The notes under the pieces were generated by a model. That model had not been told where the DNA came from, did not search any database, and saw only the letters and a program-made list of their open reading frames with translations. A stretch of DNA of 64,000 nt, taken from positions 1 through 64,000 of the forward strand of contig SUWD01000007.1 of NCBI GenBank assembly GCA_015061685.1, written 5' to 3'. Below are positions 2,251 to 60,572 of this stretch, one piece after another. Positions within the stretch are counted from its first letter, which is position 1. Each line of letters opens with the position of its first letter. The position numbers were made by a program, and so were the translations under genes. The DNA is from Lentisphaerota bacterium. GTDB lineage: Bacteria; Verrucomicrobiota; Lentisphaeria; Victivallales; Victivallaceae.

Positions 2251-3830
2251 AAAAAATTCTTTTTTTGACAATATTTTTCTGCACATTGGCGGCGTTTTCC
2301 AGCGAGATGAAATTTGCCCTGCTCGGATTGGATGATGCCGGAAAAAATGCGGTTGAACTTGTCCAATCGCAACTTTCCGGGCAGGCCGATTTTGTCGAGC
2401 GCTCTGACATAAGTGCGATCAATCAGGAACATTTTCTGCTTCAGCGATTCGGTTCCGCCAAACTGGCACGGCTTTTCACCGGAGCGGATATTTTTATTGC
2501 GGTTCAGAAAAATATCCTGACCGCTTTTGAAACCAGATACGGATTCCGGCTGGCTTACCGGGATTTATCTGCCGATTTGGACAGCGCAAGTGCGGAAATC
2601 AAAGCGGAAATATTAAAACTCAAAAGTTCCGGCAAAGATTTTTTCAAACGCCGCATCATCTCCTTTGCCGGTATCCGCAACAACTTGCACAGTTCGCTCT
2701 TACCTCAAGCGGAAACCTTTTCCAGAACCATAAATCAGGCGATCAATCAGACCCCGGCAATCCTGCTGGAACGCGAATATCTGGTCGAACTGCTCCTGGA
2801 ACAAAATTTGTCTGGAGCTTGGCAAGAGGCGGTCAGCGGTTCGGAGATTATCCATTTTGAATTCAATCCCGGAGCTGACGCCGGAGAGATCATCTTTGCT
2901 GTTTACGCCATTGATGCAAAAAATAAAACGGTTTTCAAAAAAGAAGATACCAATTTGCAAAGCGTGTTAAAGGCGTTGAATGAACACTGTTCACTTCCTC
3001 CGGCACAAACCCGTTACACATTGAAAGATGAAGCACGCCGTTTCGCTTCCGAAGCCCGTATCGCCAGAGATGACAACAAATATTTACTGGCGGAAAAATT
3101 GCAGTTTGCCGCCTTTGCACTTGCCGGTGATGATTCGCAGTTTTTCGATCTTGGAATTTCCGCAAATGAAAAATTGACCGACCTTTTCCCTTACTGGTTC
3201 GCCGCATTGCAGAAACTCATCCATCATCCCCAATGGCTCAAACCACATACCGACAGCAGAAGCAATGCTATGCGGATCATATCCGGTATTTATTACAGAC
3301 AGTACACATTGCCGGAAAAGTTACGCAAGGATTATTGGAACTTTCTTGAAGCCAACCGGAATATGTTTTTACAGGGCGATGATGTCTGGCAATTCAACTA
3401 TGTGAAACCGGAACTTTTTGAAACGCACACCGATTATCTGCAAGCCAAAGAGAAGTCGTGGCAAATTCTGTTGAGCAAAAAAATCTCTGCCCAAGATATG
3501 TACGATGTTTCAGAAGATCTTTTCAAATACCAGAAAGCCATACCATCACTTCAACGGCAGAAATGGACAGAAAATAATGCCGGAATGCTGCGGAAGGTCC
3601 CCGGTTTGGAAATTATGGCAAAAAGTCTGGAATGCAATGCCTTCCTTTACACAAAAAAGTGTACAGTCGAATTGGCATCGGCAAAATATGAAGAACTTTT
3701 TGCGATGCTGAAAAAATATCCCGATTTGCATATTGATTCATATCAGCTGTACAACTACCCAAGCGTTAATGCCTATATCGGATTATTGGAAAAAGTAAAA
3801 TCATTACATAAAAAATATAAGGAGAAGTGA
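2247..3830 (+). CDS. Exported protein with two CsgG-like segments
   Basis: 527 residues. The ATG at 2247 is chosen because it overlaps the preceding stop and is followed at once by a signal peptide (MKKILFLTIFF, cleavage near AFSS). Two segments resemble the CsgG/curli-assembly pattern: residues about 22-70, with FVERSDISAINQEHFL, and residues about 130-195, with ILLEREYLVELLLEQNLSG. Each combines an amphipathic helix with an (E)R-x-x(2)-E-type loop. CsgG-like domains are found in envelope lipoproteins and secretion pores; no lipobox cysteine is visible here, so pore formation is not implied. The remainder is helical and unrecognised. Confidence 0.7.
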   Translation: MKKILFLTIFFCTLAAFSSEMKFALLGLDDAGKNAVELVQSQLSGQADFVERSDISAINQEHFLLQRFGSAKLARLFTGADIFIAVQKNILTAFETRYGFRLAYRDLSADLDSASAEIKAEILKLKSSGKDFFKRRIISFAGIRNNLHSSLLPQAETFSRTINQAINQTPAILLEREYLVELLLEQNLSGAWQEAVSGSEIIHFEFNPGADAGEIIFAVYAIDAKNKTVFKKEDTNLQSVLKALNEHCSLPPAQTRYTLKDEARRFASEARIARDDNKYLLAEKLQFAAFALAGDDSQFFDLGISANEKLTDLFPYWFAALQKLIHHPQWLKPHTDSRSNAMRIISGIYYRQYTLPEKLRKDYWNFLEANRNMFLQGDDVWQFNYVKPELFETHTDYLQAKEKSWQILLSKKISAQDMYDVSEDLFKYQKAIPSLQRQKWTENNAGMLRKVPGLEIMAKSLECNAFLYTKKCTVELASAKYEELFAMLKKYPDLHIDSYQLYNYPSVNAYIGLLEKVKSLHKKYKEK

Positions 3831-5056
3831 TGGTGAAAAAAGTTTTTATTTTCGTCATAACCGCATTGTTTGCAATAAATCTTGCGGCAGAGGATTTTTA
3901 TACGAATCCGGAAAAACTTCAAAACTTCTGGCACAACAGCCGTAATTTTTACTGCCGCGATACCGCCAAAGAAGCCCAGTTGCAGCAGCTTAATCCGGCG
4001 TGGAAAATAGAAAAACTCTGGCAAGCTCCGGGAACGCAGAAAATCTATACCTCAACCAGTGATGATAAAGGCAATATCTATTTTCTGACCGCAGACAACT
4101 TTGATTATCAGATATACCGTATTTCCGACAACGGCACAGCAGAACTACGCTGGAGTTTGCCTAAACTGCGTGATGGCAGCGGTGATGGTTTGGGTATGTT
4201 TATAACGATGCGCATTGACGGAGATACTCTGCTGGCGACCGAAAGCCGCTATGTATGGATTTCGCAACCCGGCAAAAAGGTACTGTTCCGGTTGTCGCAC
4301 TTTCCCTTTATCATCAAGGATCTTTGGCTTCAGGACGACCGTTTGATGCTGTTGGGCGAAAAACAGTTGATGAGCTGTGACCGACAGGGCAAAGCACGGA
4401 AGACCCACTTTGCCGCCAATCAGGCAGGAAAAAGTCTGTCGCTGTTCCAAAATAATCCGCAGGCAAAATTTTTCGCAGGCGGCACGGGAAATACTCCCGA
4501 TGAAGTCATTCTCTTTTACGGCGATATGCCAAGCGCATTCGGCAAATATTCTTTAAGCAAAAATGAGTTTACTGAAATCGCTTCATTACCCGGAACCAAT
4601 GAACAGAATTATATTTATCATGTTACAAAATTCAAGGATTCCTACCTTTACAGCTGGGCGGCAAGACCGGATTGCGGGATAAATATGCAGTTCATTTATT
4701 CACTAAAAGAGAACAAATTGACCGTCCTCGGCAGTCGTATCAATGATTATTTGAAGTCATTCTGGAAAGGTATGCCGTCAAATCTGGGCATTACCTGGAA
4801 TCCGATGCACAATGTCGCAGGTCCCATTGCGTACAACGGCAAATATCTTTTGTATTCCGGGGGCAACGGCACAGGTCATGCCAAATATCAGCGTGAAAGC
4901 TCTGCCGGATGTGCCGGGATCGTGGATTTGACCCGATATCCCGAAGGCGTTTCTTTGAAATACCCAGCAGTCAACGGCTTATATTTCGGCAAAGACGGCA
5001 AATCCCTACTGGCTGTGGAATACACTCAGGTAACTCTCATTACTCCCAAAAATTAA
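3830..5056 (+). CDS. Exported beta-propeller-like protein
   Basis: 408 residues. ATG 3830 is preferred over the GTG at 3827 because a GGAG at 3821-3824 is five bases upstream. The protein begins with a signal peptide (MVKKVFIFVITALFAINLAAE). The rest consists of repeating beta-strand motifs such as DDKGNIYFLTADN, IDGDTLLATESRYVWI and NGKYLLYSGGNG, the look of a WD40/NHL-type propeller, so it probably binds protein or glycan in the periplasm. No catalytic residues can be assigned. It follows the CsgG-like gene with a one-base overlap and belongs to the same operon. Confidence 0.7.
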   Translation: MVKKVFIFVITALFAINLAAEDFYTNPEKLQNFWHNSRNFYCRDTAKEAQLQQLNPAWKIEKLWQAPGTQKIYTSTSDDKGNIYFLTADNFDYQIYRISDNGTAELRWSLPKLRDGSGDGLGMFITMRIDGDTLLATESRYVWISQPGKKVLFRLSHFPFIIKDLWLQDDRLMLLGEKQLMSCDRQGKARKTHFAANQAGKSLSLFQNNPQAKFFAGGTGNTPDEVILFYGDMPSAFGKYSLSKNEFTEIASLPGTNEQNYIYHVTKFKDSYLYSWAARPDCGINMQFIYSLKENKLTVLGSRINDYLKSFWKGMPSNLGITWNPMHNVAGPIAYNGKYLLYSGGNGTGHAKYQRESSAGCAGIVDLTRYPEGVSLKYPAVNGLYFGKDGKSLLAVEYTQVTLITPKN

Positions 5057-52797: not shown

Positions 52798-53877
52798 ATG
52801 AAATTTTCACCCGAAGAGAGACAGCGGCTCAACATCGCCATTGAGCGTCTTGTTCAGAAACACAAAAAAATGCGTAAGGCTCATCCGGAATTGAAACTCG
52901 GTGAAGCTGCCGCCCCCGCCCCGGAAGGTTACGTGGAAGACGATCCGTTGCGGAATTGCGGAAATTCCGAATGGCAGAAATTGATCGAGCCGGAAAACTC
53001 CGAATTGGACAAAATTCTCCTCGAATATCTCGCAGAAATCCCCAAAGTTCCCGCCGAAAAAATGGCAAAACTTACCGGAGACAACACCTGGGTCTGGGGC
53101 GGTCCCACCCCTTACTGGGGCGGAACTATGGCCGATGATACGCTTGTCCGCGGTGCGGATTACTTCAACGCCGACAACGTCGTTTACGTTTACGGACCGA
53201 CTGATGACAAAATGATGACCATGCACAGCAAGTACAAAAGAATGCTGTGTCAGGTCAACTCCCAGTGCCGCACTCCCGGAGCCCAGAATAACTTCACCGG
53301 AGCGACCGGTAAAACAGCTGATAACCTGCGTACTCCCGGTGAAAAAAATTTTGCAGATGCGGAAAATGCGGAATATTTGAGCAAACTTTCTCTCCAGTAT
53401 CCCAATATTGCCGGGGCGATGTGTGACGATGTTTCCACCTACTTTGAAAAAATCGTTCTGCCTGAACCTTTTGAAGCACGCTACAAAGCTCTGAAAAAAT
53501 TCAACGACAAACTCCGCATGTACGGCGTGATTTACGTCCACGAACTCGGTACCAAAGATTACTCTCTCATCCAGCCCTACATGGATGTGGTCAACCTCTG
53601 GTTCTGGAATAAGGACGAGATCCTTGAGTACGATGAAAACATCGAATTGTGCCGTAAAAACTTCCCCGGCAAGCCGATTCTTCAGGGTATTTTCCTGCAT
53701 GAATACGGCAGAGCTGACAGCGGCAACGTCCCCGAATTGCTGGTTTACCAGCTGGATAAGGCAAGAGAATATATTGCTAAAGGTATCGTTGAAGGAGTCG
53801 TCCTTCTCGGAGACCGTGAAATCAAAAAGTGGCCCGATGTCGCAGCCACTCTCAAAAATTATCTGGAAAATCAGTAA
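52798..53877 (+). CDS. Unrecognised cytoplasmic protein, possibly TIM-barrel
   Basis: 359 residues; an optimal AAGGAGG before ATG and a strong terminator after the stop suggest high expression. No signal peptide. The helical N-terminus (FSPEERQRLNIAIERLVQKH) is followed by an alpha/beta body with NTWVWGGPTPYWGGTMADD, IAGAMCDDVSTYFEK, MYGVIYVHELGTKDY, VNLWFWNKDEI, ILQGIFLHEYGRAD and VEGVVLLGDREIKKWP, the alternation expected for a TIM barrel with D/E/H at strand ends. I do not recognise the family. Neighbouring amidohydrolase and creatinase-like genes suggest catabolic context, but a repeat element separates them. Confidence 0.7.
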   Translation: MKFSPEERQRLNIAIERLVQKHKKMRKAHPELKLGEAAAPAPEGYVEDDPLRNCGNSEWQKLIEPENSELDKILLEYLAEIPKVPAEKMAKLTGDNTWVWGGPTPYWGGTMADDTLVRGADYFNADNVVYVYGPTDDKMMTMHSKYKRMLCQVNSQCRTPGAQNNFTGATGKTADNLRTPGEKNFADAENAEYLSKLSLQYPNIAGAMCDDVSTYFEKIVLPEPFEARYKALKKFNDKLRMYGVIYVHELGTKDYSLIQPYMDVVNLWFWNKDEILEYDENIELCRKNFPGKPILQGIFLHEYGRADSGNVPELLVYQLDKAREYIAKGIVEGVVLLGDREIKKWPDVAATLKNYLENQ

Positions 53878-53890
53878 GTTTTCCCACCCT

Positions 53891-53918
53891 GCCCCGGAGC
53901 AATTCCGGGGCTTTTTTT
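53891..53918 (+). terminator. Rho-independent terminator
   Basis: Stem GCCCCGGA/TCCGGGGC with a five-base loop followed by seven T, 13 bases after the stop of 52798-53877. It reaches to the stop codon of the converging GH130 gene. Confidence 0.9.
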
Positions 53919-54927
53919 ATACAGTTGCTCCGGTTACCAAATCAAGCAATTCACCGATTTCAGCAATTGCCAGACACTCAACCGTATCAGCAGCACCATA
54001 ATAAATTTTCACTTCTCCTGATTCTTCCAAAATCATACCGCCGGGAAAAATAACATCTCCGCGAAAACCATTTTTTTCATACGGTGTCTCCGGTACAAGT
54101 AACGGTTTATTGTAAATACCGATAACTTTGGCCGGATCATCCAAATCCAGCAGCATTAATCCGGCATAGTAAATTTTACGCCAGTTCAAGTGCCATGACT
54201 CAAGGTCATGATCAGCATATTTTACGGCATGAAATGTGGTAAGCCAGCCCTTTTCCGTTTTTACAGGAGGTGCGGCAGGGCCGATTTTGGCATCTGCGAA
54301 TGGAATACTCTCTGCCCCCAATACCAATCGGCTCTCTCCCCAATAAACCAAATCAGGAGAAGCTGAACACCACAAATCAAATTGCTCGGCGGCACCATTG
54401 CGACTGTAAACCGGCATGGGGCGTTCCAGACGGAAATATTTGCCGCCGATCTTTTCCGGGAACAACACCATATTGCGGTTATCCGGAACTGAAAGAGATT
54501 TTATTTCAAATTTTTCAAAGTCTTCTGTAACAGCGATTCCGCCTCGCAAGCCATGCTTGGTGTCCATTGCAAAACAAACCGCAACTTTTCCGTCAATAAC
54601 AGTCAAGCGGGGATCATAGACCCGTAAAATCTCTTCGTCATGAATTTCCCATACCGGCTGCGGATGGATTTGCCAATTGATTCCATCGGCACTTTCTGCA
54701 AAACCGATATTAGTACCCTTGAAAGGAACTCCGCGTTTGCCGGAAGCCAGAAAGTCAGCTTCCGTTGCTCCGTAATCGTTGCGGAAAAGCATCACATATC
54801 TGCCCTGATATTTTGCCACACCGGCATTGAATATCAATGAGGCCTCAAAAGGCATTTTCTCGGCACTCAACAATGGATTTTGTGATACCCGATGGAGGCA
54901 CTTTGCCGTAGTAAAAATATCTTTCAT
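53917..54927 (-). CDS. GH130-family beta-mannoside phosphorylase/hydrolase-like
   Basis: 336 residues. Five-bladed propeller motifs of GH130 are clear: NAGVAKYQGRYVMLFRND, VYDPRLTVIDGKV, DNRNMVLFPEKIGGKYFRLERP, KIGPAAPPVKTEKGWLTTFHAV, VIFPGG and IYYGAADT. Such enzymes split beta-mannosides with phosphate or, in some subgroups, water, in the cytoplasm. No signal peptide. The ATG overlaps the stop of the large SGNH/GH-like gene by four bases, so the secreted and cytosolic steps are co-expressed, which suggests that the locus targets a mannose-containing glycan. Confidence 0.88.
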   Translation of the reverse strand: MKDIFTTAKCLHRVSQNPLLSAEKMPFEASLIFNAGVAKYQGRYVMLFRNDYGATEADFLASGKRGVPFKGTNIGFAESADGINWQIHPQPVWEIHDEEILRVYDPRLTVIDGKVAVCFAMDTKHGLRGGIAVTEDFEKFEIKSLSVPDNRNMVLFPEKIGGKYFRLERPMPVYSRNGAAEQFDLWCSASPDLVYWGESRLVLGAESIPFADAKIGPAAPPVKTEKGWLTTFHAVKYADHDLESWHLNWRKIYYAGLMLLDLDDPAKVIGIYNKPLLVPETPYEKNGFRGDVIFPGGMILEESGEVKIYYGAADTVECLAIAEIGELLDLVTGATV

Positions 54928-57900
54928 ATACTCTCTCTTCTTCCCTCAATAATTACCGGACATTGTGCCGGAATTATCAAACTTAAAACGTTTTCTCTTT
55001 TTTCAAACTCCAACTCCGCCGGATAAACAACTGTAAAATTCTTATCCGATGCTTGATATTCCCTGTCATCAAGTTTTATTGAAATGCGGCGAGTATTATC
55101 CTCTAAATTATACAATATGATTCCCAGATTCCCATCCGGAGCCTGAAACGCACTTGAGATCACCGATGGAGATTTGACGGTATAAAAACTTTCTCTCCAG
55201 CCAATCCCCCACGGAATAGCCAATTCCGGGATATCCCCCATAACTTCCGGAGGACGAAGCATTTTGCCATAAACAAAAAATTTACGTCCGGCATCAAAAG
55301 CCTCCATACGCTTTTTACTGGTACGTCTCACCCGTTCCGGATCACTGAAACGATACATCGCATGGGGCAATTCCCATCCGGGCATGATCCCCCAGAGTAA
55401 TGCTTGAGCAGTCTTTGATATCAATCCCATTGCCTGACCGGTCAAATCGCCTCTGCCGTAATGGGTGGCAAACAATAATGCATAATCATTATAAACCACC
55501 GGAGCCAATGGAATTGCCGTCACCCGATCCCCCTCCAGATAAGCACTGGGACTGTTGACACACAATACGGCGTCCAGACAGTGAAGATTGCCTTCCCAGA
55601 AACTTTCGGTTGTCGTGCAGAAATCCGGATTTATCTTCCGCCCTTCCTCTCTGATTCTGCACAGCAGTCTGCGATTATTATCAACATAATCAGAACCGCC
55701 GCCTGAAGCTTTTGAGCAGTAGGGTGTAAAATTCAAATGAGCTCCGCCATGATTGCCGGAATCAAGATACGCAACACTGAAACCGGAATGAACCATGCAC
55801 TTGGTAAAACCGGTCAAAACCTTCTGCCACAATTCGCCAGGATACGCAAGCATTGACTCGCTCCGGAAACCAGCACCGCCCCAGGAAAGAATTTGTCCAT
55901 AAAAGTTGCATAATAAATTTTTTTCAACCTCTCGGCTGGTCTTGAAACTGGGCATCGAGCGTGTCCACGCTGTCAGCTGGATATATCCGGAAACCGGATA
56001 ACCGGATCGCTGCAGCATCTCCAAGACTTTTTTATCCTTTTCCGTCAACGGAAAGCGATCAGGATTGGGAAAATCATAACGTTTGTTGTCCAATCCCCAA
56101 TGAGTCAGCCAGATACCAATACGATGATCATGAAAATATGAAAAATATTTTTCACAATCCTCTCTCTGTCCCTGAAGCAGATTATCAACAGAAACATGAA
56201 GCCACGAGGTCATATCCAGAAACCACGCCGGAATATCATTATTTCGCCGGGACACCAGAGTACCTTTACTGCACCACTCCTGTTTAATTGCCCAATTACG
56301 ATAAATTTGGGCAGCATCGTACCAATCACCGGAAAAACTCCTGACTTCTATCGGATAAGGGATTTCCCATTTTTGCGGTGACTTGGATTTCATATTATCC
56401 GGCAGATTGACACATACCCAGGAAAAACCATTAACCGCCGATGAATTCAAATCCCAGCGTTTGCTGTTCTGGTCCGGATCCCAAACCCCAAAAAACAAAC
56501 CGTCGCCGCTTTTACTGTAAAGAGCATCAAAATGCATTGAATGTCCGGAGTTGTTACTGCGGAAAAGCCGGGAACCATTTAACAATTTCCCTGAAGCAGG
56601 ATTCCTTATCAAACGCCCCAAATAGTGCGGAGTTGCCAAAAAATCATCATTCCCATTACCATTGATTTTTCCCAGACCGGATATTTGAGGACAGTTGAAA
56701 TAAAATACCGTATATTTTTTTGATCTATTTACAAAACTGCCGGAAAACTTCATTCCGCCATCAGCTGTTACAGAAACACAAACAGTTACATCCAATGCCT
56801 TTTTTTCGTTCCCGACGCTGATATTTTTCCAGTGAAAAAGCAAGTTTCCGTTACGTCTTTCCATAACACAATCGGCACCAAGAGTTTTTACTATGGATGA
56901 ATCTATTATCAGATCATTGCTGTTTTCGCCATCCCTGCCGATCGAGTCTGCAGAATCATCCATTTCCGGGTCACAGGCGATCGCTGTCACCGGCGGGACC
57001 TCTTTATCTGCAGTATTTTTCTGTTTCAGCCGGATCGACCAAATTCCCCGATCCGGTTGAAAATTGATAAATTGTCTGCCTTTACGATTGCGGATTCCGG
57101 TTACAGCGGCACCAGATTCAGGAGAAGAAAAACCGAAACTCACACCGGAAGATTTCAATTCGGTGTATCGTTGAAACACCTCTTTATTCTCCGCTGCAGT
57201 TGGTAAAACTTCTTCTTTTTTAATCAATGTCGCCTCTTTTATATCAGCATTACCATAAATTCTTAAGGATAAAGAAGCTTGAGTCACCTTTTCCGGAACA
57301 ATGATTTCTCCGGAATAAGTTTGCCAATGTTGAGAAAGCTTGCCCGATTTCACCTCCTTGTGTCTGACCGGATGATAAAAAGACCACGAAACCGATGCGA
57401 TCCCAGTTCCCCTTATCCGCAAAGACCAATGATATCTGCCGGGGGTAACACGAAATAATTCTGTGCGGATCAATGCCGGGGTTTTAGAATCCCGACAAAC
57501 TCTTATGAATTTGCCATTTCCCCCAATTACAGTTGCCCGATCCTTATCTTTGCGATGGAATTTCCATGCTGCAGGAAACCGTGAGGAATCTAATTTTTCA
57601 AACGAATTGTTGGCTATGAGATTACCATTCCCTGCGGTCAATTTCTTTGCAGGAGTTGGTTTCCGGCTGCATGAGGCAAGTTCAGGATTGAGCAGTCTCC
57701 ATAATTGTGCCGGATAAGTTTCTCCCTCTACGGAGCCGGCCCCTTTTACATGAACTCCAAATGTAATGCTGTCGCCCAAACAGACAATATGACAATTTTC
57801 CGGTACCATTTTGCGTATTTCCGGTGCAATAAATGTTGCAAATTTTGCATATCCGGTCGCATTGAGATGGACACCGTCGTCAGCTTTGCTGTTGGAACAG

Positions 57901-58409
57901 GTCCTGAAAAGAGAATTTTTCTCATCTTTTGCACCTCCATTGGCGGCAAAAAACTCAAAAGAATCAATAACACCTGCATCTAAAGTTTTTGCAGCAGAAA
58001 AAACTGCTTTCCCGTATTTACGCAAATATTCATCCAATGTCATCGGCAGCGGAACTGCAAGATTAATTTTGGGAGACCGTTTCCGTAAAATCGACTCCAC
58101 AGCGGGAAATGGAGTAATAAAAATAACTTTTTTAACACCGCCTTGCTGCAAAGTTCTTCCGATAGCAAGAAGATTTTTTTCAAATTCTTCCGGAGAAACC
58201 ATCTTATTCGGATTAAGTGCATCATTAGTACCCAGCAAAACAATCACGGCATAAGGTTGTTCTGACAAAACATCCCGGGATAATCTGGCGAGGGCTTCCC
58301 GGGATGAATTCCCGGGTATCCCGGCATTGCTCACCGTAATTTCTGCATTGATCGTGAAAAACAACAGCAAAATTACCGATAGCAGCAATATTTTTCTCAT
58401 GCAACTCAT
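54924..58409 (-). CDS. Giant secreted SGNH (permuted) / CBM-like / DUF6259-like enzyme
   Basis: 1161 residues, started at ATG 58409, seven bases after the prepilin stop (ATG 58400 is an alternative). Signal peptide about 1-22. Residues 23-250: SGNH hydrolase with blocks in unusual order: NAGIPGN (28-34), GTND (60-63), DGVH (178-181), then GDSIT (212-216), the serine block normally first. About 265-400: carbohydrate-binding-like beta domain (NLIANNSFEKLD, YHWSLRIRGTG). About 430-1150: beta domain plus TIM barrel resembling DUF6259/GH-like proteins (GDWYDAAQIYRNWAIKQ, GIWLTHWGLDNKRYDF, VAYLDSGNHGGAHL, TTESFWEGNLHCLDAV). Probably a bifunctional esterase/glycosidase. Confidence 0.75.
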   Translation of the reverse strand: MSCMRKILLLSVILLLFFTINAEITVSNAGIPGNSSREALARLSRDVLSEQPYAVIVLLGTNDALNPNKMVSPEEFEKNLLAIGRTLQQGGVKKVIFITPFPAVESILRKRSPKINLAVPLPMTLDEYLRKYGKAVFSAAKTLDAGVIDSFEFFAANGGAKDEKNSLFRTCSNSKADDGVHLNATGYAKFATFIAPEIRKMVPENCHIVCLGDSITFGVHVKGAGSVEGETYPAQLWRLLNPELASCSRKPTPAKKLTAGNGNLIANNSFEKLDSSRFPAAWKFHRKDKDRATVIGGNGKFIRVCRDSKTPALIRTELFRVTPGRYHWSLRIRGTGIASVSWSFYHPVRHKEVKSGKLSQHWQTYSGEIIVPEKVTQASLSLRIYGNADIKEATLIKKEEVLPTAAENKEVFQRYTELKSSGVSFGFSSPESGAAVTGIRNRKGRQFINFQPDRGIWSIRLKQKNTADKEVPPVTAIACDPEMDDSADSIGRDGENSNDLIIDSSIVKTLGADCVMERRNGNLLFHWKNISVGNEKKALDVTVCVSVTADGGMKFSGSFVNRSKKYTVFYFNCPQISGLGKINGNGNDDFLATPHYLGRLIRNPASGKLLNGSRLFRSNNSGHSMHFDALYSKSGDGLFFGVWDPDQNSKRWDLNSSAVNGFSWVCVNLPDNMKSKSPQKWEIPYPIEVRSFSGDWYDAAQIYRNWAIKQEWCSKGTLVSRRNNDIPAWFLDMTSWLHVSVDNLLQGQREDCEKYFSYFHDHRIGIWLTHWGLDNKRYDFPNPDRFPLTEKDKKVLEMLQRSGYPVSGYIQLTAWTRSMPSFKTSREVEKNLLCNFYGQILSWGGAGFRSESMLAYPGELWQKVLTGFTKCMVHSGFSVAYLDSGNHGGAHLNFTPYCSKASGGGSDYVDNNRRLLCRIREEGRKINPDFCTTTESFWEGNLHCLDAVLCVNSPSAYLEGDRVTAIPLAPVVYNDYALLFATHYGRGDLTGQAMGLISKTAQALLWGIMPGWELPHAMYRFSDPERVRRTSKKRMEAFDAGRKFFVYGKMLRPPEVMGDIPELAIPWGIGWRESFYTVKSPSVISSAFQAPDGNLGIILYNLEDNTRRISIKLDDREYQASDKNFTVVYPAELEFEKRENVLSLIIPAQCPVIIEGRRESI

Positions 58410-58416
58410 AAAAAAA

Positions 58417-59145
58417 TCAGATTTCAAATATTTGATAATCTTTCACATCATATTTATCTGCCAATTCTTTTTTCTCATGAGTTCTGGCAGAACCATCTGC
58501 AAACCAGAGATTCACCCTTTTTGCATGTCTTCCGGCAAGTTTGTAATTGTCTGCACTGGATGCCACCGGATGAAGTACCGACGTTCCGGGATAACTGACA
58601 TCATTAGCCAATACACTATCCGAAAAAAGAAAAAATTCACTGGCTGAGTAAGGACCGATATCAGCATCAGCACAAGAAATCGGAGTGCTTGCAATACGAA
58701 AACCCGTATTATTGTCCTTATTCATTCTCAAGCCGTAAGTATAATATGACCAGGACTGCTCATTGGAATTTTTGCTGAGAGCTGTACTTTTATCAGTGAC
58801 ACTGGAAGACGGACAATAAAAAGTTCCGGCTCCCTCTCCCAGAAAACCGGCATTGCTCAATGCATAACTCCAGTTGCAATTATTGTTGGGCTTATCAGAA
58901 CGATATTTGCCGCTTACAGATGGTGCATAACCATCATTGGCATCGGCATACATCGCTGTAACAGTACCAAGATTTTTCAGGTTGTTGACGCAACTGATAC
59001 TGCGTCCTCTCTCTCTTGCCGAATTGAGTGCCGGAAGCAGAATCGCCGCCAAAATTGCGATAATCGCAATCACGACAAGAAGTTCGATAAGAGTAAAACA
59101 CTGATGTTTTACTCCGCTTAAGCGGAAACTGGTTTGTTTTTTCAT
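58417..59145 (-). CDS. Prepilin-type protein (copy E)
   Basis: 242 residues; AAGGAGA upstream of ATG 59145. A 16-residue leader ending [12 protein letters not shown] and the helix ending [12 protein letters not shown]; residue -1 is Cys. C-terminal [12 protein letters not shown]. It lies between the FAD oxidoreductase gene and the giant SGNH/GH-like gene; the gap to the latter is seven bases with no separate ribosome site visible, so translation may be coupled. Confidence 0.85.
59091..59126 (-). promoter_or_regulatory. Double hairpin in prepilin leader, copy E
   Basis: Perfect palindrome TCCGCTTAAGCGGA (59113-59126), then a stem with arms GAGTAAAACA/TGTTTTACTC and loop TCAG in the mRNA (59091-59114), spanning bases +20 to +55 of the gene. 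Confidence 0.75.
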
Positions 59146-59162: not shown

Positions 59163-60506
59163 TTAAAGTTTGGATGCACCAAGAAATGCTCCGAAATCAA
59201 TTAATTCTGTCCTTACCTGAATACCATTTACCTGCCCCGGCAGCAAACCGTTTTTTACTGCCAATGCAGCCCCGGCACCGGCTCCCTGCCCTGTGGCACA
59301 GCAAACCGGCATGATCCGCAAACTGCTGTTGGTTATATGATCCGATGAAATTATCCTGCCGGCGGTCAATAAATTATCACACCCCTGCGGGATAAGACAC
59401 CGGAAAGGTATTTCGTAATAATCGCTGTAATCTGCAGCGGCAGTATAAGTCGTACCGCTTCCCGATGGAGAATGAATATCAACAGGGTAATTGCATCGGG
59501 CGATGGCATCCGGAAATTTTCGTCTCCGGTACAGATCATCTGCAGTCAAACAGAATTTTCCGATAACACGCCGGCTTTCTCTGATCCCCAATTGCTGTCC
59601 CATGGAAACGATCTCGGCATTCTCAAAACCTTCGATCCGGTTACGCAACCAGAAAAGAAATTCCCGGATCTGTTCTCTGGCAATCATTCCGGCCTCCTGA
59701 TAACTGCCGGAATCCAATGGATCATGTAAAACCACTCTGGTGGTATTAAAGTGTACCGTATCCGGAGTTGTACTTTGAAACATAAGAATATTTTCCCTCG
59801 GACAACTCAAATCTCCGGCTGCTTTAGCCTTGGAATATTCCTGCTGTATTTTTTTCCTCCACTCCCCGCACCAGAAATCCTCATCCGGAATCCTGACCGG
59901 TGCAACCTTGAAACACCATGTCATCGGTTGACACAAACCTTCATCATTGCCGATTTCGATTTTACATCCGGCTTGTGCAGCAAGTACTCCATCGCCGGTA
60001 GCATCTATGTAAACCTCTCCGGAAACTGCGGTCAATCCGCTGCGGTTATGCAAGATCAATGTCTTGATCTGACCATTTTCTTTCACCGTATCAAAGAGCG
60101 TATGTTCATATAAAACTTTAACTCCGGCAGCATTAAGCATATCCTCTGCACTCAAAGCTGCATAATATTTATTGATGTAAAGTTTACCCCATTTCGGCCC
60201 CATTTTATCATCAATATAATTCAAGGTTGCCGCAGAATGATATTTCCCCATCCGGGAAAGCCAATCGGCATAAAGCGGATGATCCATGCTTTCCTCGTCC
60301 AAATGATTGAGCATAAAAGGGGATACCTCTCCGGCATACGCCATTCCTCCGGGCATACTGTGTCTTTCAATCAGTACCGTATCGCACCCCATCTGTGCAG
60401 CCGTCAATGCAGCACAGATACCAGCCGGTCCGGCACCGGCAACAACCACCTGACACTGTCGAACTGTTTCTATTTTCTGATTCAAATTGTAGTTGAAACT
60501 TGTCAT
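59163..60506 (-). CDS. FAD-dependent oxidoreductase (FAD_oxidored family)
   Basis: 447 residues. ATG 60506 follows AGGAAATATA; the longer upstream frame is the promoter region. Dinucleotide motif [21 protein letters not shown] at residues 20-40 with [10 protein letters not shown] behind it, [17 protein letters not shown] in the middle, [34 protein letters not shown] near the end: the PF12831 pattern common in Lentisphaerota and Planctomycetota carbohydrate loci. No signal peptide, so a cytosolic role is likely. The substrate is not known. First gene of the operon divergent from the PocR/AraC regulator. Confidence 0.85.
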
Positions 60507-60509
60507 TAT

Positions 60510-60572
60510 ATTTCCTGTCGCATCTTCATCGCATCTGTACATAATATACTTCACAAAAACAGGAAATGTCAT
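60510..60572 (-). promoter_or_regulatory. Promoter region of the 60506 operon with inverted repeat
   Basis: ATGACA (complement 60567-60572), 18 bases, TATATT (complement 60543-60548). A nine-base inverted repeat, ATTTCCTGT at 60510-60518 and ACAGGAAAT at 60559-60567, brackets the -10 box and includes the ribosome site. The rest of the gap to 60849 is AT-rich; it holds a short 3' frame fragment (60674-60766) with no start and an AAAGCGGA/TCCGCTTT inverted pair, but no gene I can support. Confidence 0.5.

Follow-up and report, generated by a model that had tools for sequence, protein, structure and literature searches.

Evidence for a circularly permuted SGNH hydrolase domain with G-N-H-S block order in Lentisphaerota and other bacterial phyla

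In canonical SGNH hydrolases the conserved blocks follow one another in the order S-G-N-H, with the GDS block first. A gene in the stretch of Lentisphaerota DNA that we analyzed (64,000 nucleotides, here called the window) raises the question of whether an intact SGNH domain can be built with its nucleophile block last. According to the list of open reading frames and their translations, this gene occupies 58409-54924 on the minus strand and codes for 1161 amino acids; an alternative in-frame TTG start lies at 58427. Its N-terminal part contains the following features.

58344..58409, minus strand: signal peptide, residues 1-22, MSCMRKILLLSVILLLFFTINA, by sequence inspection, with the cleavage site inferred
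57675..58346, minus strand: predicted circularly permuted SGNH hydrolase domain, residues 22-245, blocks in the order II-III-V-I
58308..58328, minus strand: block II, NAGIPGN, residues 28-34, with Gly33 as presumed oxyanion-hole residue, from motif positions
58221..58232, minus strand: block III, GTND, residues 60-63, with Asn62 as presumed oxyanion-hole residue, from motif positions
57867..57878, minus strand: block V, DGVH, residues 178-181, with Asp178 and His181 as presumed catalytic residues, from motif positions
57762..57776, minus strand: block I, GDSIT, residues 212-216, with Ser214 as presumed nucleophile, from motif positions

The original prediction had named these four motifs at these residues, inside 57700-58345, and all its positions are exact. 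The residues EITVSNAG directly follow the signal peptide, so that the mature chain would open at strand β2 of the SGNH fold, and two orthologues (G035 and G049) have an identical layout, a signal peptide and then strand β2. All four blocks that define the superfamily are present (GDS of block I, Gly of block II, GxND of block III and DxxH of block V), together with a significant profile match: on the full protein the Pfam model PF13472 (Lipase_GDSL_2) scores 58.4 bits against a cut-off of 32.9, model positions 36-177 of 178 aligning with residues 26-188. Block I is missing from this match because it comes after the matched part. The canonical S-G-N-H order is not found; the window domain runs G-N-H-S, with GDSIT on its last strand and not on its first.

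It had been predicted that joining the end of this domain to its start would recreate a continuous one, and the rotated sequence does match the Pfam SGNH model over its full length. The window domain scored 63.4 bits with PF13472 before rotation and 75.7 bits after it, and coverage grew from model positions 36-177 to 1-177; rotated sequences gained about 11-12 bits in a single stretch, with the same trend in two other members. In a sequence search of the PDB, the GDS segment of the native permuted profile aligned ahead of the remainder on the canonical enzyme 1yzf, and the rotated profile aligned with 1yzf in one piece, over positions 3-218. The permuted profile behaved likewise at canonical loci, its block-I segment aligning ahead of the remainder.

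An AlphaFold2 model of residues 21-258, made with an alignment of 34 sequences, is one compact domain (mean pLDDT 95.2, pTM 0.91) with five strands at model residues 5-10, 34-38, 74-78, 126-128 and 187-192, the last being the GDS strand, which is followed by helix α1 (helices at 212-227). The GDS segment, whose packing elsewhere would have spoken against a permutation, is placed inside this single confident domain. A model of the full-length protein, made with 5 sequences, was too uncertain to use (pLDDT 61, pTM 0.42). The α/β/α fold is predicted both by the AlphaFold2 model and by Foldseek, whose top matches were canonical SGNH esterases with query-normalized TM scores of about 0.4-0.56. Most of these alignments span 170-185 columns, a length to be expected when a sequential aligner meets a permuted chain, and this is indirect evidence. 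Among the matches listed in fold searches of the PDB and BFVD, none was identified as permuted.

A first search, with residues 1-263 of the window protein against 78 genomes of the same family, returned many matches running through both halves of the domain, and the open reading frames confirmed by regular expression kept the order II-III-V-I. Several of these homologues are proteins of about 210-270 amino acids that start at block II and end shortly after block I and its helix. Homologues with the same block order, which the original prediction had proposed as a check, amount to at least 69 distinct copies in same-family genomes, GTDB genomes and viral contigs. A simple length classification, in which some reading frames are cut by locus ends, divides them into 43 stand-alone, 14 N-terminal and 12 C-terminal copies, and the stand-alone ones end 24-40 residues past GDS. 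GxND and DGxH are found in 69/69 copies, and so is GDS[IL] (GDSITYG in L085); in 64 of the 78 reading frames counted, GDS follows DGxH at a spacing of 34 residues. GDS is invariant in both alignments of permuted members (A1 and A2), and Gly30 and Gly33 are invariant in A2. Among 80 GTDB and 12 viral loci, no regex-confirmed permuted copy has a GDS upstream of its GxND block, and in the partial or regex-missed copies (L096, L115, L122, L124, L127, L128, L152 and L161) the profile matches run in permuted order. PF13472 matches all 34 of the 34 permuted members. Proteins with the G-N-H-S order are a stable protein family.

Permuted copies are present in at least five phyla, Lentisphaerota, Verrucomicrobiota, Planctomycetota, Bacteroidota and Acidobacteriota, and in three viral contigs. 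Named hosts include Neorhodopirellula (Planctomycetota), Victivallis vadensis, Terriglobus and other Acidobacteriota and, among Bacteroidota, Sinomicrobium, Zunongwangia, Chitinophaga, Pedobacter and others. Full-length relatives of the window protein (34-38% identity) were found in Lentisphaeria and in one Planctomycetota MAG. In a survey of 241 genomes of the phylum with the permuted profile, permuted copies scored 157-274 bits, nearly all covering positions of about 2-219 (33 matches over about 2-219 and one partial copy over 49-219, in 23 genomes). The next match scored 113 bits, and most canonical ones end at about 175-182; this clean gap between permuted and canonical scores indicates that the permuted order is not due to chance.

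One diverged copy lies below that gap, L077 (G032:C27, about 3219-3872 of the contig), which scores 92 bits and spans profile positions 3-218. It is a permuted SGNH-like domain in a frame of 1173 amino acids with GRDD, RHFT and GGEE in place of the catalytic motifs and, judged from its sequence, is likely a pseudoenzyme. In two predicted viral contigs from IMG/VR (L160 and L169) the permuted domain forms the C-terminus of proteins of about 480 amino acids, the first weakly resembling phage lipase and tail-fibre families. The permuted domain was seen in no record of the phage and plasmid collections, where only the plasmid match with the best coverage (H23, Phocaeicola) was read out and proved to have canonical order.

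The orthologues, the compact model and the rotation test uphold the predicted circular permutation, and we hold it to be very probable that residues 22-245 form an intact, circularly permuted SGNH hydrolase domain. The gene might instead be truncated or chimeric and carry the non-functional remnants of two SGNH domains, as two half domains are adjacent at first look and Pfam annotates a partial domain only. This reading is scarcely credible: permuted proteins that stand alone and keep their motifs intact refute it, and the block order, the invariant motifs and the near-constant DGxH-to-GDS spacing across many genomes and isolates, as well as the confident compact model, also stand against it. 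A search for homologues with a complete first domain, which would have marked the gene as truncated, found none. An assembly error or truncation is likewise rejected on account of cultured isolates and orthologues, since isolates and the complete genome of Terriglobus roseus carry permuted copies. It is also very improbable that the GDS segment is swapped into a neighboring molecule and completes the active site there, or that the domain has a binding or structural role and is not an enzyme. L077 does keep the domain though its motifs are lost, but the motifs are invariant in the 69 other copies, and both the short linker that leads to the GDS strand and the high-confidence monomer model argue against a swap. 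The permuted domain of the window protein, as modeled, is probably active as an enzyme. Finally, the permutation might be real and have arisen several times independently, which we consider rather unlikely. In a tree of rotated permuted domains and canonical domains, free searches strongly clustered the permuted copies but required 2-3 changes, and not one, against 18-22 when shuffled. However, a single permuted clade was not rejected (p-AU 0.646) and had a likelihood above that of the free search, the starred branches of the tree force at most one change, and the breakpoint is identical in all copies. A single origin of the permuted form is compatible with this sequence-based tree.

The direction of change would have been from canonical to permuted, since the canonical form has spread far more widely. 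The old termini, at the GDS strand and at the final helix behind DxxH, would have been joined through a short linker, and new termini opened between helix α1 and strand β2, giving G-N-H-S in place of S-G-N-H. We conjecture that the domain was first duplicated in tandem and in frame, after which the first copy lost its block I and the second copy its blocks II-V. The original prediction of a tandem duplication with loss of the outer halves is plausible in this respect, but its intermediates did not come to light: none was seen, and no upstream GDS was present in any permuted reading frame checked. The genome of the window also codes (C33, 20013-22130; L011/L014) for a protein of 1260 amino acids in which two SGNH domains of canonical order stand in tandem; the second has GGSH where GDSL is expected. 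This protein is a precedent for tandem duplication, not an intermediate.

Compared with canonical SGNH/GDSL enzymes (PF13472; 1yzf, 7ddy and Axe2, 3w7v), the window domain shares all four blocks and the predicted fold, and its rotated sequence matches end to end; the native order differs. The original prediction, which knew of no reported SGNH permutation of this kind, was right only in part, as permuted forms are known in AlgX, AlgJ, PatB1 and WssI. AlgX, AlgJ and WssI, and PatB1 of the DHHW family, are circularly permuted SGNH folds that run H-S-G-N (H-S-G-Y, H-S-G-D), and in AlgJ and AlgX block I reads GTSYS and block V is of the DxH type (PMC9487903, PMC4148444, PMC10302187). The known permutations open at another breakpoint, and the G-N-H-S order was not found described in the open-access literature searched (most subscription papers lie outside that search). 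In contrast to the H-S-G-N order of AlgX, AlgJ and the DHHW family, block I of the window domain is last, and blocks II and III do not come after it. Furthermore, AlgX and AlgJ combine DxH with a Tyr for the Asn of block III, whereas the permuted copies described here carry ordinary GDSI/L, GxND and DGxH blocks, unlike AlgX, AlgJ, PatB1 and WssI, with DGxH and GxND in all 69. The Pfam family PF16822 touches only 1 of the 34 permuted members (E 4e-4). We found neither a Pfam or NCBIfam model specific to the G-N-H-S form nor a solved structure of it.

The remainder of the protein and its neighbors bear on the likely substrate.

57195..57611, minus strand: CBM_4_9-like region, about residues 267-405, with 49% identity over 137 amino acids to the N-terminal region of L042
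55458..56366, minus strand: DUF6259 (PF19773), residues 682-984, glycoside-hydrolase-like, 108.7 bits
55047..55169, minus strand: Glyco_hydro_30C β-sandwich, residues 1081-1121, weak, 22.1 bits against a cut-off of 22
53917..54927, minus strand: GH130 phosphorylase gene, PF04041, 146.4 bits
59163..60572, minus strand: FAD oxidoreductase gene, PF12831, 361.4 bits

The N-terminal region of L042 (G056:C51) scores 24.8 bits with CBM_4_9, just below the 25.9-bit cut-off; there the CBM-like region precedes the permuted SGNH domain, and in the window protein it comes after. No paper naming DUF6259 was found in the open-access literature searched. The GH130 gene lies on the same strand as the SGNH gene and shares 4 nucleotides with its 3' end, and downstream of the GH130 gene, on the opposite strand, is a reading frame of 359 amino acids without a Pfam match (52798-53877). 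One pilin-like gene lies between the FAD oxidoreductase and SGNH genes (58417-59145; DUF1559, with an N-methylation motif). A Bacteroidota copy (L088) is clustered with SusD, a SASA esterase, a GMC oxidoreductase and gluconate dehydrogenase subunit 3, and two Acidobacteriota copies are near GH36 or GH2. The window protein resembles the esterase-glycosidase fusions of polysaccharide-degradation loci in joining a secreted esterase to CBM-like and glycosidase-like domains beside GH130, and differs from them in that its esterase is the permuted form.

We infer that Ser214, His181 and Asp178 would hydrolyze an ester, with Gly33, Asn62 and the amide of Ser214 forming the oxyanion hole. The more probable substrate is an O-acetyl group on a polysaccharide, which would make the protein a secreted carbohydrate O-acetylesterase. 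This role is favored by acetylxylan esterases among the nearest solved relatives (7ddy and 3w7v, by PDB sequence search and Foldseek), by weak AxeA1 matches in 30 of 34 permuted members (NCBIfam, far below cut-off) and by the GH130, SusD, SASA and glycosidase neighbors. Deacetylation would allow the glycosidase-like DUF6259 region of this secreted protein to act, and the products would later be handled by the GH130 phosphorylase. The permuted domain could instead be an active hydrolase of another ester: a lipid, an acyl-CoA, or an acylated sugar that the FAD oxidoreductase partner processes. Of the 34 members, 27 resemble TesA (NCBIfam, also far below cut-off), and PF12831 lies beside or is fused to many copies, which may indicate sugar oxidation over simple backbone deacetylation. 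Both points make this a possibility to be taken seriously, but the signal peptide, the fusion to CBM-like and DUF6259 regions and the GH130, SusD and SASA neighbors favor glycans, and we give more weight to the O-acetylesterase role.

Besides the window gene at 59163-60572, PF12831 genes lie beside permuted SGNH genes at L081, L088, L091, L094, L101, L103, L106, L108, L110, L113 and L117-L119, in several phyla. In Neorhodopirellula (L081) the two are fused in one protein, and at L103 the two genes overlap. A PF12831-type profile matched in the flanks of 17/45 permuted loci versus 2/47 other loci, an enrichment that is indicative only, because the control loci were drawn from other taxa; the profile was built partly from neighbors of permuted genes, and those loci count by construction. 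On closer inspection, both of the other loci with a match (L124 and L152) turned out to be permuted as well. The expected density of PF12831 is low, most genomes having a few full-length copies, and Neorhodopirellula and Victivallis more. We tentatively propose that this third SGNH topology, G-N-H-S with an opening between α1 and β2, present in multiple phyla, may work in partnership with PF12831 FAD oxidoreductases as an undescribed two-enzyme module for acylated sugars.

The repeated pairing provides a testable lead on an oxidoreductase family whose accession is named by a single paper of the open-access literature searched. As annotation sees only partial GDSL domains in these proteins, their catalytic serines may be missed or the genes called truncated. 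With the G-N-H-S order, a hydrolase fold that is among the best studied gains a second breakpoint found in nature, and the tolerance of the SGNH fold to permutation can thereby be compared in nature.
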